DNA from: Blastococcus sp. TF02A-30
GTDB taxonomy: Bacteria > Actinomycetota > Actinomycetes > Mycobacteriales > Geodermatophilaceae
Assembly: GCF_003319185.1 (NCBI RefSeq)
Contig: NZ_QOHJ01000008.1
Span: forward strand, 1-64,000
Direction: 5' to 3'
Length of the DNA: 64,000 bases
The notes under the pieces are model-generated. The model searched no databases. It was given only the letters and a program-made list of their open reading frames with translations, and had not been told where the DNA came from. Within the stretch, counting starts at the first letter, position 1. Each line of letters starts with the position of its first letter. A program made the position numbers and the translations under genes. This document shows positions 56,955-62,349 of this stretch, in pieces.

Positions 56955-59900
56955 GTGACGCGAGTGAAGACGTGGCTCGACAGCTGGCCGGTGTACCGCC
57001 AGCTCACCGGCTCGGACCCGATGGGTCGCGGCAAGGCCGCCCGCAGCAAGGCGACCGAGGCGACGGTGTCGCGCACCGCCACCGCCGACCGCGTCGCGAA
57101 GAGCGTCTGCCCCTACTGCGCCGTCGGCTGCGCGCAGAACGTGTACGTGAAGGACGAGAAGATCGTCCAGATCGAGGGCGACCCGAACTCGCCGATCAAC
57201 CGCGGCCGGCTCTGCCCCAAGGGCAGCGCGAGCAAGCAGCTGGTCACCAGCCCGACCCGCGTCACCACGGTCAAGTACCGCCGTCCGTTCGGGACGGAGT
57301 GGGAGGACCTGGACCTCGACACGGCGATGGAGATGATCGCCGACCGCGTCCTGGAGGCCCGCGAGAAGGGCTGGCAGGAGGAGGACGGCGGCAAGCGCGT
57401 CAACCGCACCATGGGGATAGCGAGCCTCGGAGGGGCGACCCTCGACAACGAGGAGAACTACCTCATGAAGAAGCTCTACAGCGCCATGGGCGCGATCCAG
57501 ATCGAGAACCAGGCCCGCATATAGCACTCCGCGACGGTGCCCGGTCTGGGTGCCTCGTTCGGTCGTGGCGGCGCCACGAACTTCCTGGAAGACCTCGCGA
57601 ACTCCGACTGCATCGTCATCGAGGGTTCGAACATGGCCGAGTGCCACCCGGTGGGCTTCCAGTGGGTCGGTGAGGCCAAGGCGCGCGGCGCCAAGATCAT
57701 CCACATCGACCCGCGGTTCACGCGGACCAGCGCGATCGCCGACCTGCACGTGCCGCTGCGCATCGGCACCGACATCGCGTTCCTCGGCGGGCTGATCAAC
57801 TACGTCCTCGAGAACGAGCTGTACTTCGAGGAGTACGTCCGCGCGTACACGAACGCCGCGGCGATCGTGAGCGAGGAGTTCGTCGACGCCGAGGACCTCG
57901 ACGGCCTGTTCTCCGGCTTCGACCCCGAGACGCAGACCTACGACGAGACCAGCTGGCAGTACGAGCCCGGCAGCCAGGACGCGAGCACCGACCACCCGGC
58001 CGAGGCCGCGGAGCAGGAGCGCGAGGAGCAGCACCCCGACGTCAAGCACTCCGACCGCGCCCAGGCGGCCGGCAGCGGCGGGCCGCCGATCCCGAGCAAG
58101 CCGCACCGCGACGAGACGCTGCAGCACCCGCGCAGCGTGTTCCAGATCCTCAAGCGGCACTACGCCCGCTACACCCCGGAGATGGTGTCGCAGGTGTGCG
58201 GCATCGAGCCGGCGGTGTTCGAGCAGGTCGCGAAGTGGGTCACCGAGAACAGCAACCGCGACCGGACGACGGCGTGGGTCTACTCGGTCGGCTGGACGCA
58301 GCACAGCGTGGGCGCGCAGTACATCCGCACCTGCTCGATCCTGCAGACCCTGCTGGGCAACATCGGCCGTCCCGGCGGCGGGATCATGGCGCTGCGCGGG
58401 CACGCCAGCATCCAGGGCTCCACCGACGTCCCGACGCTGTTCAACCTGCTGCCCGGCTACCTGCCGATGCCGCACGCGATGCAGCACGACTCGCTCGAGG
58501 AGTACGTCGCCGACGCCGCCGGCAAGGCCGGCTTCTGGGGCAACAAGCGGGCCTACATGGTCAGCCTGCTCAAGGCCTGGTGGGGTGATGCGGCGACGGC
58601 GGAGAACGACTTCGCCTTCGACTACCTGCCCAAGATCAACGGCGACCACAGCAGCTACCGGACGATCGCCGACATGATCGAGGGGAAGGTGCACGGCTAC
58701 TTCCTCGTCGGCGAGAACCCCGGCGTGGGGCACCCGAACAGCCGGATGAACCGGTTCGGGTTGGCCAACCTCGACTGGCTGGTCGTCCGCGACCTGCAGA
58801 TGATCGAGTCGGCGACCTTCTGGAAGGAAGGCCCCGAGCACGAGACCGGCGAGCTGGCGCCCGAGACGATCGGCACCGAGGTCTTCTTCATGCCGGCGGC
58901 CACGCACGTGGAGAAGGAAGGCACCTTCACCCAGACGCAGCGGGTGCTGCAGTGGCGGCACAAGGCCGTCGAGCCGCCGGGCGACTCCCGCAGCGACCTG
59001 TGGTTCTACTTCCACCTGGGTCGGATCCTGCGCGAGCGGCTCAAGGACTCCACCGACCCGCGGGACCGCCCGCTGCTCGACCTCACCTGGGACTACCCGA
59101 CCCACGGGCCGGAGGTGGAGCCCAGCGCCGAGGCGGTGCTGCAGGAGATCAACGGCTTCGGTCCGGACGGCACGCTGCTGAACTCCTACATGGAGATGAA
59201 GGACGACGGCTCGACGACGGGCGGCTGCTGGATCTACTGCGGCGTCTACGCCGACGGCGTCAACCAGGCCGCGCGGCGCAAGCCGGCCAAGGAGCAGGGC
59301 GTCGTCGCCACCGAGTGGGGCTGGGCCTGGCCGCTCAACCGCCGGATGCTCTACAACCGTGCCTCGGCCGACCCCGACGGCAAGCCGTGGAGCGAGCGCA
59401 AGAAGTACGTGTGGTGGGACGAGGACGCCGGTGAGTGGACCGGTCTCGACGTCCCCGACTTCGAGAAGAAGAAGCGCCCGGACTACGTGCCGCCGGAGGG
59501 TGCCAAGGCGCAGGACGCTCTGGCCGGCACCGACCCGTTCGTCATGCAGGGCGACGGCAAGGCGTGGCTGTACGCACCGGCCGGCCTGGTCGACGGGCCG
59601 CTGCCGACGCACTACGAGCCGGCCGAGTCGGTGGTCGAGAACGGGTTGTACAAGCAGCAGGCGAACCCGACCCTCGAGATGATCGAGGGGCCGTGGAACC
59701 GGGCCAACCCCGCGCGCAGCGAGGTCTACCCGTTCCAGGTGACCACCTACCGGCTCACCGAGCACCACACCGCCGGTGGCATGAGCCGCACGCTGCCCTA
59801 CCTCGCCGAGCTCCAGCCGGAGTTCTTCGTGGAGGTCAGCCCGGAGCTGGCCCGGCTGCGCGGGCTGGAGAACAACCAGTTCGCGACGCTGATCAGCGCC

Positions 59901-60251
59901 CGGACGGCGATCGAGGCGAAGGTGCTGGTGACCGAGCGGGTGCGGCCGATCAAGCTGGCCGACGGCACGGTCGTGCACCAGATCGGCATGCCCTACCACT
60001 GGTCCTACGCAGGCATCTCCACCGGTGACGCCGCGAACGACCTGCTCGGGATCGTCATGGACCCGAACACCCACATCCAGGAGTCCAAGGTCAGCAGCTG
60101 CGACATCGTGCCCGGACGGCGGCCCCGCGGGCCGGAGATGCTCGAGCTCGTCGAGTCCTACCGCAGGCGGGCCGGCGTCCCGTCGGGGAAGGTCGGCGTG
60201 AACGGCCGCGACCCGGTCGAGGCGGAGGCCGGGGAAGGGGCGACGGCATGA
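56955..60251 (+). CDS. fdhA: Formate dehydrogenase catalytic subunit, selenocysteine encoded by UAG
   Basis: A 1098-residue molybdenum/tungsten bis-MGD enzyme oxidising formate to CO2. Start GTG 56955; GTG 56964 is possible. The N-terminal 4Fe-4S site is Cys52, 55, 59 and 87 (SVCPYCAVGCAQN; RGRLCPKGSASKQ). The active-site context IQIENQARI-[Sec190]-HSATVPG is interrupted by TAG at 57522-57524, exactly where FDHs carry Sec or Cys followed by His. The same frame then continues for 908 more codons with strong conservation (GASFGRGGATNFLEDLANSD; NMAECHPVGFQWV). A SECIS hairpin follows the codon. No Tat signal is seen. fdhB starts inside its stop (ATGA). Confidence 0.95.
57522..57554 (+). promoter_or_regulatory. 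UAG selenocysteine codon and bacterial SECIS element
   Basis: UAG (57522-57524) is followed by a hairpin: GGUGCCC (57536-57542), loop GGUCU (57543-57547), GGGUGCC (57548-57554). The seven base pairs include two G-U wobbles. The loop G-U dinucleotide is the SelB-recognised feature, and the loop starts 19 bases after the codon, the same offset and same GGUCU loop as E. coli fdhF. It should recruit SelB with a tRNA-Sec whose anticodon reads UAG. Such a tRNA is not in the window. Confidence 0.9.
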
Positions 60252-61312
60252 CGATCAGCTCGGCGAGCCCGGCCTTCACCGGCCGGGACCCGGAGAACCG
60301 GCTGTTCGGGCCGCTGCCGGACGTCACGCAGGAGGCCGGCTACGAGCCGGAGCACCCCAAGCGGGTCGGCTTCTTCACCGACACCTCGGTGTGCATCGGC
60401 TGCAAGGCCTGCGAGGTGGCGTGCAAGGAGTGGAACACGCTCCCGATGGACGACTCGCACGGCAACCGCGACGCGCTCGGGCTGTCGGGGATGTCGTTCG
60501 ACAACACCGGCCAGCTGGGCGCGAACTCGTGGCGGCACGTGGCGTTCATTGAGCAGAGCCGCACCGTCGACCTGCCGATGCCGACCTTCGGCCGGCCCGG
60601 CGACGACCGGCACGACCACGGACCGTCGCCCGCGGCTGCCGGGGACGACGTCAGCCTGGCCAACGCGCAGCAGAGCGTGCTGAACGCCGAGGCGCTCAGC
60701 GAGTTCGATCCGCAGACCGGGCAGAGCGGCGGCGACAAGCAGATCCGCTGGCTGATGAGTTCCGACGTGTGCAAGCACTGCACGCACGCCGGCTGCCTGG
60801 ACGTCTGCCCGACCGGGGCGCTGTTCCGCACCGAGTTCGGCACCGTCGTCGTCCAGGGCGACATCTGCAACGGCTGCGGCTACTGCGTGGCGGCCTGCCC
60901 CTACGGCGTCATCGACCAGCGCAAGGACGACGGCCGGGTCTTCAAGTGCACGATGTGCTACGACCGGCTGACCGACGGGCTCCAGCCCGCGTGCGCCAGC
61001 GCCTGCCCCACGCAGTCGATCCAGTTCGGCGACCTCGACGAGCTGCAGGAGCGCGCCGACGCCCGGCTGGCGACGCTCAAGGCGCAGGGCGTGGAGACCG
61101 CCCGCCTGTACGGCCGGGACGAGGACGACGGCGTCGGGGGAGACGGGGCGTTCTTCCTGCTGCTCGACGAGCCGGAGGTCTACGGGCTGCCGCCGGACCC
61201 GGTGGTGACCACCCGCGACCTGCCGGCGATGTGGCGGGCGGCCGGCAAGGCCGCGGCGATGATGGTCGGGGTCGCCGTGACGGCGATCCTCGGCTCGAGG
61301 AGGAGCCGGTGA
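60248..61312 (+). CDS. fdhB: Formate dehydrogenase iron-sulfur (beta) subunit
   Basis: A 354-residue ferredoxin-type subunit with four 4Fe-4S clusters. Cluster motifs: CIGCKACEVACKEWN, CKHCTHAGCLDVCPTG, CNGCGYCVAACPYGVID and CTMCYDRLTDGLQPACASAC. A C-terminal hydrophobic helix (AAAMMVGVAVTAILG) probably anchors it to the membrane. It relays electrons from FdhA to the NrfD-like subunit. The ATG overlaps the fdhA TGA. Confidence 0.95.
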   Translation: MTISSASPAFTGRDPENRLFGPLPDVTQEAGYEPEHPKRVGFFTDTSVCIGCKACEVACKEWNTLPMDDSHGNRDALGLSGMSFDNTGQLGANSWRHVAFIEQSRTVDLPMPTFGRPGDDRHDHGPSPAAAGDDVSLANAQQSVLNAEALSEFDPQTGQSGGDKQIRWLMSSDVCKHCTHAGCLDVCPTGALFRTEFGTVVVQGDICNGCGYCVAACPYGVIDQRKDDGRVFKCTMCYDRLTDGLQPACASACPTQSIQFGDLDELQERADARLATLKAQGVETARLYGRDEDDGVGGDGAFFLLLDEPEVYGLPPDPVVTTRDLPAMWRAAGKAAAMMVGVAVTAILGSRRSR

Positions 61313-62349
61313 CCGGCGGCATCACCAGCCCCGACGCGGGCTGGCGGCAGGCCGACCGCGGCCCGGCGACGCAGCGGACCGGCAAGAAGCGCCGGCGCGG
61401 TGGCGGTCGCGGCCGCGCCGAGATGCCGATGGTCGACGACGTCGAGTTCACGTCGTACTACGGCCGGCAGATCGTGAAGACGCCGGTCTGGAAGAGCCCC
61501 GACGTGCCGCTGTACCTGTTCCTGGGCGGCGCCGCGGGCTCCTCGGCGATCCTCGGGGCGCTGGCCGACGTGACCGACCGGCCGAAGCTGACCCGCGTGG
61601 CGCGGTACACCGCGGGCGGCGGCTCGATCCTGTCGGTGGTCTTCCTGATCCACGACCTGGGACGGCCGGAGCGGTTCCTGCACATGCTGCGGGTGCTGAA
61701 GCCGACCTCGCCGCTGTCGGTGGGCACCTACATCCTGGCGCCGTTCAGCGCGGCGGCCGGGGCGACGGCGGCGGTCGAGGCGCTGGGCTGGTTCCCGAAG
61801 CTCAAGCGGTTCGGGGGAGCGGTGGCGGCGCTGTTCGGTGGGCCGCTGGCGACCTACACCGGCGTGCTGCTGGCCAACACCGCAGTGCCGTCGTGGCACG
61901 AGTTCCACACCAAGCTGCCGTTCGTGTTCGGCGGCTCGGCGATGGCGGCCGGCGGCGGGATCTGCATGGCGCTGGCGCCGCTGGACGAATCCGAGCCCGC
62001 CCGCAAGATGGCGATCATCGGGGCGGGCATCGAGCTGGCCGCGATCCGCGGGGTGGAGCACAGCGAGAGCATCGTGTCGGAGCCGTTCCACGAGGGCCGG
62101 CCCGGGAAGCTCATGCGGGCGGCGAAGGCGTGCACCTCGGCGGGGCTCGGGCTGGCCGTGCTGGGTGGGCGCAAGCGGTGGGGCGCGGTTGCGTCAGGAA
62201 CGCTGCTGGCGGCCGGCTCGCTGCTGACCCGGTTCGGTGTCTTCGAAGGGGGCATCGCTAGCACGAAGGACCCGAAGTACGTGGTGATCCCCCAGCGCGA
62301 GCGGCTGGCCAAGGGCGAGCACGACCACGCGTCGACCATCACCCGCTGA
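61309..62349 (+). CDS. NrfD/PsrC-like membrane subunit of the formate dehydrogenase
   Basis: A 346-residue protein starting at GTG 61309 overlapping the fdhB stop (GTGA). A basic cytosolic N-terminus of about 55 residues precedes eight or so hydrophobic helices. NrfD-type segments include LYLFLGGAAGSSAILGALAD and LIHDLGRPERFLHMLRVLKP, then SPLSVGTYILAPFSAAAGAT. It likely passes formate-derived electrons to menaquinone in place of a cytochrome b subunit. The absence of heme-ligand His pairs fits. Confidence 0.92.
   Translation: MTGGITSPDAGWRQADRGPATQRTGKKRRRGGGRGRAEMPMVDDVEFTSYYGRQIVKTPVWKSPDVPLYLFLGGAAGSSAILGALADVTDRPKLTRVARYTAGGGSILSVVFLIHDLGRPERFLHMLRVLKPTSPLSVGTYILAPFSAAAGATAAVEALGWFPKLKRFGGAVAALFGGPLATYTGVLLANTAVPSWHEFHTKLPFVFGGSAMAAGGGICMALAPLDESEPARKMAIIGAGIELAAIRGVEHSESIVSEPFHEGRPGKLMRAAKACTSAGLGLAVLGGRKRWGAVASGTLLAAGSLLTRFGVFEGGIASTKDPKYVVIPQRERLAKGEHDHASTITR

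Follow-up and report, generated by a model that had tools for sequence, protein, structure and literature searches.

A formate dehydrogenase gene with an in-frame TAG

The window analyzed here is a stretch of 64,000 nucleotides, positions 1-64000 of contig C38, from the 4.13-Mb genome of Blastococcus sp. TF02A-30, which is assembled in 38 contigs. It contains a formate dehydrogenase (FDH) catalytic gene with two further subunit genes downstream, all on the forward strand:

56955..60251, + strand: fdhA, FDH catalytic subunit, 1098 residues if the TAG is selenocysteine (U190); presumed GTG start
57522..57524, + strand: in-frame TAG, the proposed selenocysteine (Sec) codon, motif NQARI-U-HSATVPG
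57536..57554, + strand: candidate SECIS-type hairpin, 7-bp stem, apical loop GGTCT at 57543-57547
60248..61312, + strand: fdhB-like iron-sulfur subunit, its first 4 bases shared with the 3' end of fdhA
61246..62349, + strand: NrfD-like membrane subunit (PF03916, PF14589); 61246 is the cut of the search frame, not an established start

Once the TAG is counted as a residue, positions 56955-60251 form a single frame with no further internal stop; under the standard code the frame closes at 57524 and a second ORF opens at 57537. The NCBIfam model formate_DH_Act (NF041513) spans both halves, with profile positions 2-185 aligned upstream of the TAG and 192-1067 downstream, and the half after the TAG scored 1559.1 bits by itself, passing the curated cut-off of 1400. 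When aligned to solved FDHs, the TAG coincides with the active-site residue, the X or C of 'QARI-X-HS.TV', which reads 'QARI-X-HSATV' in 1h0h and 'QARI-C-HSPTV' in an entry named selenocysteine-containing. A sequence-only reading of this DNA had placed the TAG at the catalytic Sec/Cys position of an FDH whose halves are both conserved in one frame and free of other disruption, had noted the fdhB and nrfD-like genes that follow, and had warned that annotation as an ordinary stop would split the enzyme in two; all of this was borne out, and a TAG at the catalytic site of an otherwise open fdhA is confirmed. Chance or a sequencing error at this position was ruled out by the presence of the same TAG in every family FDH gene that retains the site (68/68). 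The fdhB-like product scored 178 bits against the FDH-beta model TIGR01582, below its curated cut-off of 335, and an NCBIfam search with the NrfD-like subunit gave no match.

Decoding machinery and the reading of the codon

The proposal that UAG specifies selenocysteine in fdhA came with the suggestion to look elsewhere in the genome for a tRNA-Sec with a CUA anticodon and for selA, selB, and selD. All four are present on contig C36, in support of a UAG-directed selenocysteine:

C36:55967-56058: tRNA-Sec, anticodon CUA (CTA in DNA), Rfam RF01852, 66.9 bits (gathering score 47)

The selB and selA genes lie on one side of this tRNA and selD on the other. In NCBIfam searches, for which we chose the start positions of selB and selD, selA scored 428 bits (cut-off 268), selB 286 bits (cut-off 242), and selD 387 bits (cut-off 125). 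The best model stretch of SelB covers residues 10-360 of 587, mainly the GTPase half, and the presumed hairpin-binding part falls outside it; the SelB proteins of relatives align over their entire length. A second RF01852 match, just above the cut-off at 48.2 bits, is a tRNA-Ser according to ARAGORN. Release factor RF1 was also found (481 bits, cut-off 423), and the stops of 41 window ORFs selected by GC3 comprised 36 TGA, 4 TAG, and 1 TAA. Since RF1 is present and 4 of these 41 ORFs end in TAG, UAG still serves as a stop elsewhere, and the fdhA codon is a case of recoding, not reassignment. The prevalence of TGA as a stop (36/41 ORFs) is insufficient as a reason for UAG to be favored, since the outside genes that we read retain TGA for Sec. 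Among the three families searched for a second selenoprotein in this genome, we found the one FDH, no UGSC protein, and no CMD-like match.

The candidate hairpin starts 14 bases downstream of the codon's first base, and its loop 21 bases downstream. As a single sequence, positions 57510-57575 fold no more stably than shuffled versions (z -0.72), so the case for the hairpin rests on conservation. Across 51 distinct sequences (35 with TAG and 16 with TGA), standard pairs occupied 96.6% of the stem pair cells, compared with at most 62.5% when the stem was slid out of register. Changes on both sides of a pair were seen in 25 cells against a shuffled mean of 7.3, a value reached in 0 of 500 shuffles that ignore relatedness. 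The strongest covarying pair, columns 18-30, links the third positions of two codons; it is formed in 51/51 sequences, with five pair types. In 12/51 sequences the outermost pair is broken, and within the TGA genes alone it was paired in 6/16, below the shuffled mean. Together, these patterns argue for conservation of a SelB-binding type of hairpin after the codon.

We therefore regard fdhA as encoding a selenoenzyme in which selenocysteine is specified by UAG, with a probability of about 0.95. The codon, the tRNA, the sel genes, the hairpin covariation, and the distribution described below were observed directly; charging, delivery by SelB, and selenium incorporation would proceed as established for Sec insertion in bacteria. 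The tRNA-Sec(CUA) would be charged with serine and then converted by SelA with selenophosphate made by SelD, and SelB would carry it to this UAG because the downstream hairpin, with its GGUCU loop, marks the codon. Other UAGs would be read by RF1 as stops. In E. coli, UGA in fdhF is likewise served by a tRNA-Sec together with SelA, SelB, and SelD, and GGTCT stands at the identical distance from the codon; unlike that system, the window has a UAG codon and the tRNA a CUA anticodon, and decoding would compete with RF1 rather than RF2.

The frame does stop at 57524 under the standard code, as it would if the TAG were a nonsense mutation that left fdhA a pseudogene or an enzyme made as two fragments. 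With the same TAG in all site-keeping family FDHs, TGA in the 20 outside genes that we read, both halves fitting one model in one frame, and a matching tRNA and sel genes in the genome, we consider this exceedingly improbable. Pyrrolysine is another amino acid that UAG could specify, and ARAGORN labels the CUA tRNA 'tRNA-Pyl'. Rfam, however, lists the same tRNA as tRNA-Sec above the gathering score; it sits between selA-selB and selD, and it shares 83 of 92 bases with the UCA tRNA-Sec of a sister genus (genome G072), with four of the nine differences in the anticodon arm. The TAG, moreover, occupies the Sec/Cys position of an FDH, and on these features of the tRNA and the site we give pyrrolysine almost no weight. 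Lastly, UAG might be suppressed with a standard amino acid, such as serine from unconverted Ser-tRNA-Sec or cysteine, to yield an enzyme of low activity, at least when selenium is short; tRNA-Sec does first bear serine in known bacterial systems. Against this stand selA and selD scores well above the model cut-offs and the conserved hairpin of SelB-binding type, which make such suppression very unlikely.

Codon and tRNA across Geodermatophilaceae

Among 112 genomes of the family, the CUA tRNA-Sec pattern was found in 101, distributed over 9 of 12 genera. The UCA pattern was found in 8/112: seven of the nine genomes of three genera (g5, g6, and g7) plus Geodermatophilus sp. LHW52908 (G058), the sole genome with both. 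Neither pattern was found in G067, G071, G097, and G098, which are 72-82% complete. The g5-g7 genomes, with their fragmented assemblies, are probably MAGs. ARAGORN agreed with the pattern scan on 29 loci (21 CTA and 8 TCA). It calls the tRNA at L001:1497-1592 and 21 CUA tRNA-Sec loci tRNA-Pyl, an annotation trap. Two incomplete genomes each carry two CUA tRNA-Sec copies: G036 (C25:216-280 and C168:20833-20897) and G095 (C376:60-124 and C481:4344-4408); the G036 copies differ in sequence, possibly as a result of mixed bins.

We also scanned GTDB contigs with the exact CUA pattern, which misses divergent tRNAs, and obtained 92 stretches, of which 80 were listed; 79 of these 80 carry a family-type tRNA-Sec-like sequence. 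A Methylotetracoccus stretch (L142), considered as a CUA tRNA-Sec outside the family, proved to be a chance pattern match with no tRNA. Two MAGs with titles outside the family, 'Jatrophihabitans' (L121) and 'Frankiales' (L148), have tRNAs of the family type. So does SPQJ01000003.1 (L112), titled 'UNVERIFIED_ORG: Bacillus sp. AZ43', which is probably a misnamed Geodermatophilaceae genome because its CUA tRNA-Sec is of the family type.

We inspected 70 FDH loci of the family; the Sec site survives in 68 of them, with TAG in all 68. The other two, the FDH copies of genome G079 (L082 and L273, on contigs C4 and C12), are both deleted across the Sec codon and the hairpin with different end points, which may be a real loss or an assembly fault. 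Outside the family, TGA occupied the site in all 20 loci that we chose for reading; among the matches listed, every outside row had TGA and none had TAG. Within the family, g6 and g7 contain an FDH of another subtype ('CNRT-U-HAPSV') with TGA at the site followed by GGTCT in G070, G071, G072, G073, and G074. This amounts to five of the nine g5-g7 genomes, all five in g6/g7, counting only TGA sites read in context; several '1 TGA' rows were ordinary stops. The contigs retrieved for G070, G072, and G073 include a selA gene. For seven family FDH rows scored '1 TGA, 1 TAG', we rejected the TGA as an additional Sec codon, since in the six loci fetched (L072-L077) it lies at the gene end, more than 900 codons downstream; the remaining row, a G098 fragment, was left out of this reading. 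The extra TAG in the '2 TAG' rows of G030 and G060, 187 codons upstream of the site and near the gene start, was likewise rejected.

The UGSC proteins (NF041046), a second selenoprotein family, gave matches in 54/112 genomes. In 48 of these 54 genomes, one or more matches contained a single in-frame TAG, counted anywhere in the match; the other 6 had no stop-bearing match, and TGA appeared in no row.

These distributions are consistent with a history in which the anticodon of an ordinary UGA-reading tRNA-Sec would have switched from UCA to CUA in an ancestor of most of the family, after which selenoprotein genes would have changed from TGA to TAG with the hairpin retained; we infer this direction from the outside genomes. 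In a quick IQ-TREE analysis of 88 FDH proteins (LG+G4, Sec site masked), the 68 TAG genes fell into five groups among TGA genes, requiring a minimum of five codon changes, and the starred branches force five. Constraining all TAG genes together was rejected (p-AU 9.9e-33). Two genes, L197 and L204, are on long branches. The topology would be explained either by repeated import of FDH genes from UGA-reading bacteria followed by codon conversion, or by old paralogues that were converted around the time of the switch. The minor TAG groups are patchily distributed, which appears to favor import. Complete sel-fdh cassettes on plasmids are a possible vehicle. In NZ_CP110115.1 (L290; Arthrobacter pYA7-1a, typed conjugative) and NZ_LR134459.1 (L291; Tsukamurella plasmid 17), selB, selA, tRNA-Sec(UCA), selD, nrfD, an Fe-S gene, and fdh adjoin one another. 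The cassettes share with the window's genome the selB-selA / tRNA / selD order and the fdh-type genes; their anticodon is UCA and their sel genes adjoin fdh, whereas in the window's genome the anticodon is CUA and sel and fdh lie on two contigs.

Most accounts of selenocysteine recoding link it to UGA. For UAG, 75Se labelling or mass spectrometry was reportedly shown by Mukai et al. in 2016. The claim that UAG-selenocysteine had already been reported in this family is upheld by Santesmasses et al. 2017 (PMC5330540), where three tRNA-Sec genes with a CUA anticodon are described from genomes of Geodermatophilaceae; the UAG FDH and UGSC proteins are there attributed to an earlier paper, and AhpC of Blastococcus saxobsidens is added. 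PMC10778597 cites Mukai et al. 2016 on UAG-coded selenocysteine in Geodermatophilaceae, and PMC8124441 mentions the use of UAG by some bacteria; beyond this, the accessible portions of PMC10778597 and PMC13188914 hold nothing further on the family. PMC3639795 tabulates Geodermatophilus obscurus among organisms that are candidates for pyrrolysine, an entry that we take to reflect a wrong name for the same CUA tRNA. The use of UAG for selenocysteine in FDH of Geodermatophilaceae is therefore already published, and the family, the CUA tRNA-Sec, and the FDH gene family are all common to that system and the window. Compared with the three tRNAs in the published genome set, our comparison adds the distribution over 112 genomes, the UCA/UGA sister genera, several probable conversions, and one genome with two tRNAs. 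Our literature search, which looked at titles and abstract openings, left out most subscription papers, and is thus no proof of absence, showed no paper on the UCA sister genera, repeated conversion, or a two-tRNA genome.

The lasting interest of the locus lies in this family-wide series together with the candidate two-codon genome described below. Within a single bacterial family, the gene, the hairpin, and the tRNA can be traced through a change of codon, in a natural series of UCA/UGA genera, a larger CUA/UAG group, and FDH lineages that each arrived at TAG, and one can ask how the assignment of a codon shifts while the proteins relying on it keep working. There is also a practical side, in that the standard code splits fdhA in two and ARAGORN misnames the CUA tRNA.

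A Geodermatophilus genome with two tRNA-Sec types

In Geodermatophilus sp. LHW52908, fdhA (L080) and a UGSC match contain TAG, and selA, selB, and selD lie beside the CUA tRNA. A second tRNA-Sec and a possible selenoprotein gene are found on contig C17, which has 69,133 bases and no N runs:

C17 (L040):1173-1263, - strand: second tRNA-Sec, anticodon UCA, 81.8 bits
C17 (L040):1579-2157, + strand: CMD/AhpD-like gene (PF02627) whose CxxU motif contains an in-frame TGA

The two are on opposite strands about 315 bases apart, and the UCA tRNA is identical to the CUA tRNA of the same genome at only 64 of 93 aligned positions. No selA, selB, or selD was found on C17. A candidate hairpin after the CMD-like TGA was no better than shuffles (z -0.47), and a SECIS there is only suggested. 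Kilobases 2-6 of the contig have a GC content of 0.59-0.65 with transposase genes around, and the UCA tRNA and CMD-like gene look like part of an acquired island. The pair may instead have been joined to C17 by chimeric assembly at an IS element. No synteny of the left part with G055 and G063 was found at the places that we guessed; among the relatives' stretches compared there, only 52.5-59.9 kb of C17 aligned, to G055. Pieces within 12.2-17.3 kb match other Geodermatophilus genomes (six searched), and 52.5-59 kb is 84% identical to a Geodermatophilus relative.

On balance we lean slightly toward a cell with two selenocysteine codons, UAG and UGA, in which the UCA tRNA and the CMD-like gene would be served by the SelA, SelB, and SelD of the host. 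If so, selenoprotein genes that a UAG-Sec lineage acquires from outside would settle either by codon conversion to TAG, as in several FDH lineages, or by bringing their own tRNA, and such a genome would make it possible to test directly whether a single SelB can serve both stop codons in one cell. At the position of the CMD-like TGA, 13 other hand-picked sequences have Cys (8), Trp (4), or Leu (1). The Trp rows (P0003, P0004, P0006, and P0007) are among the closest relatives of the CMD-like protein and may represent TGA translated by another code, that is, unrecognized selenoproteins.
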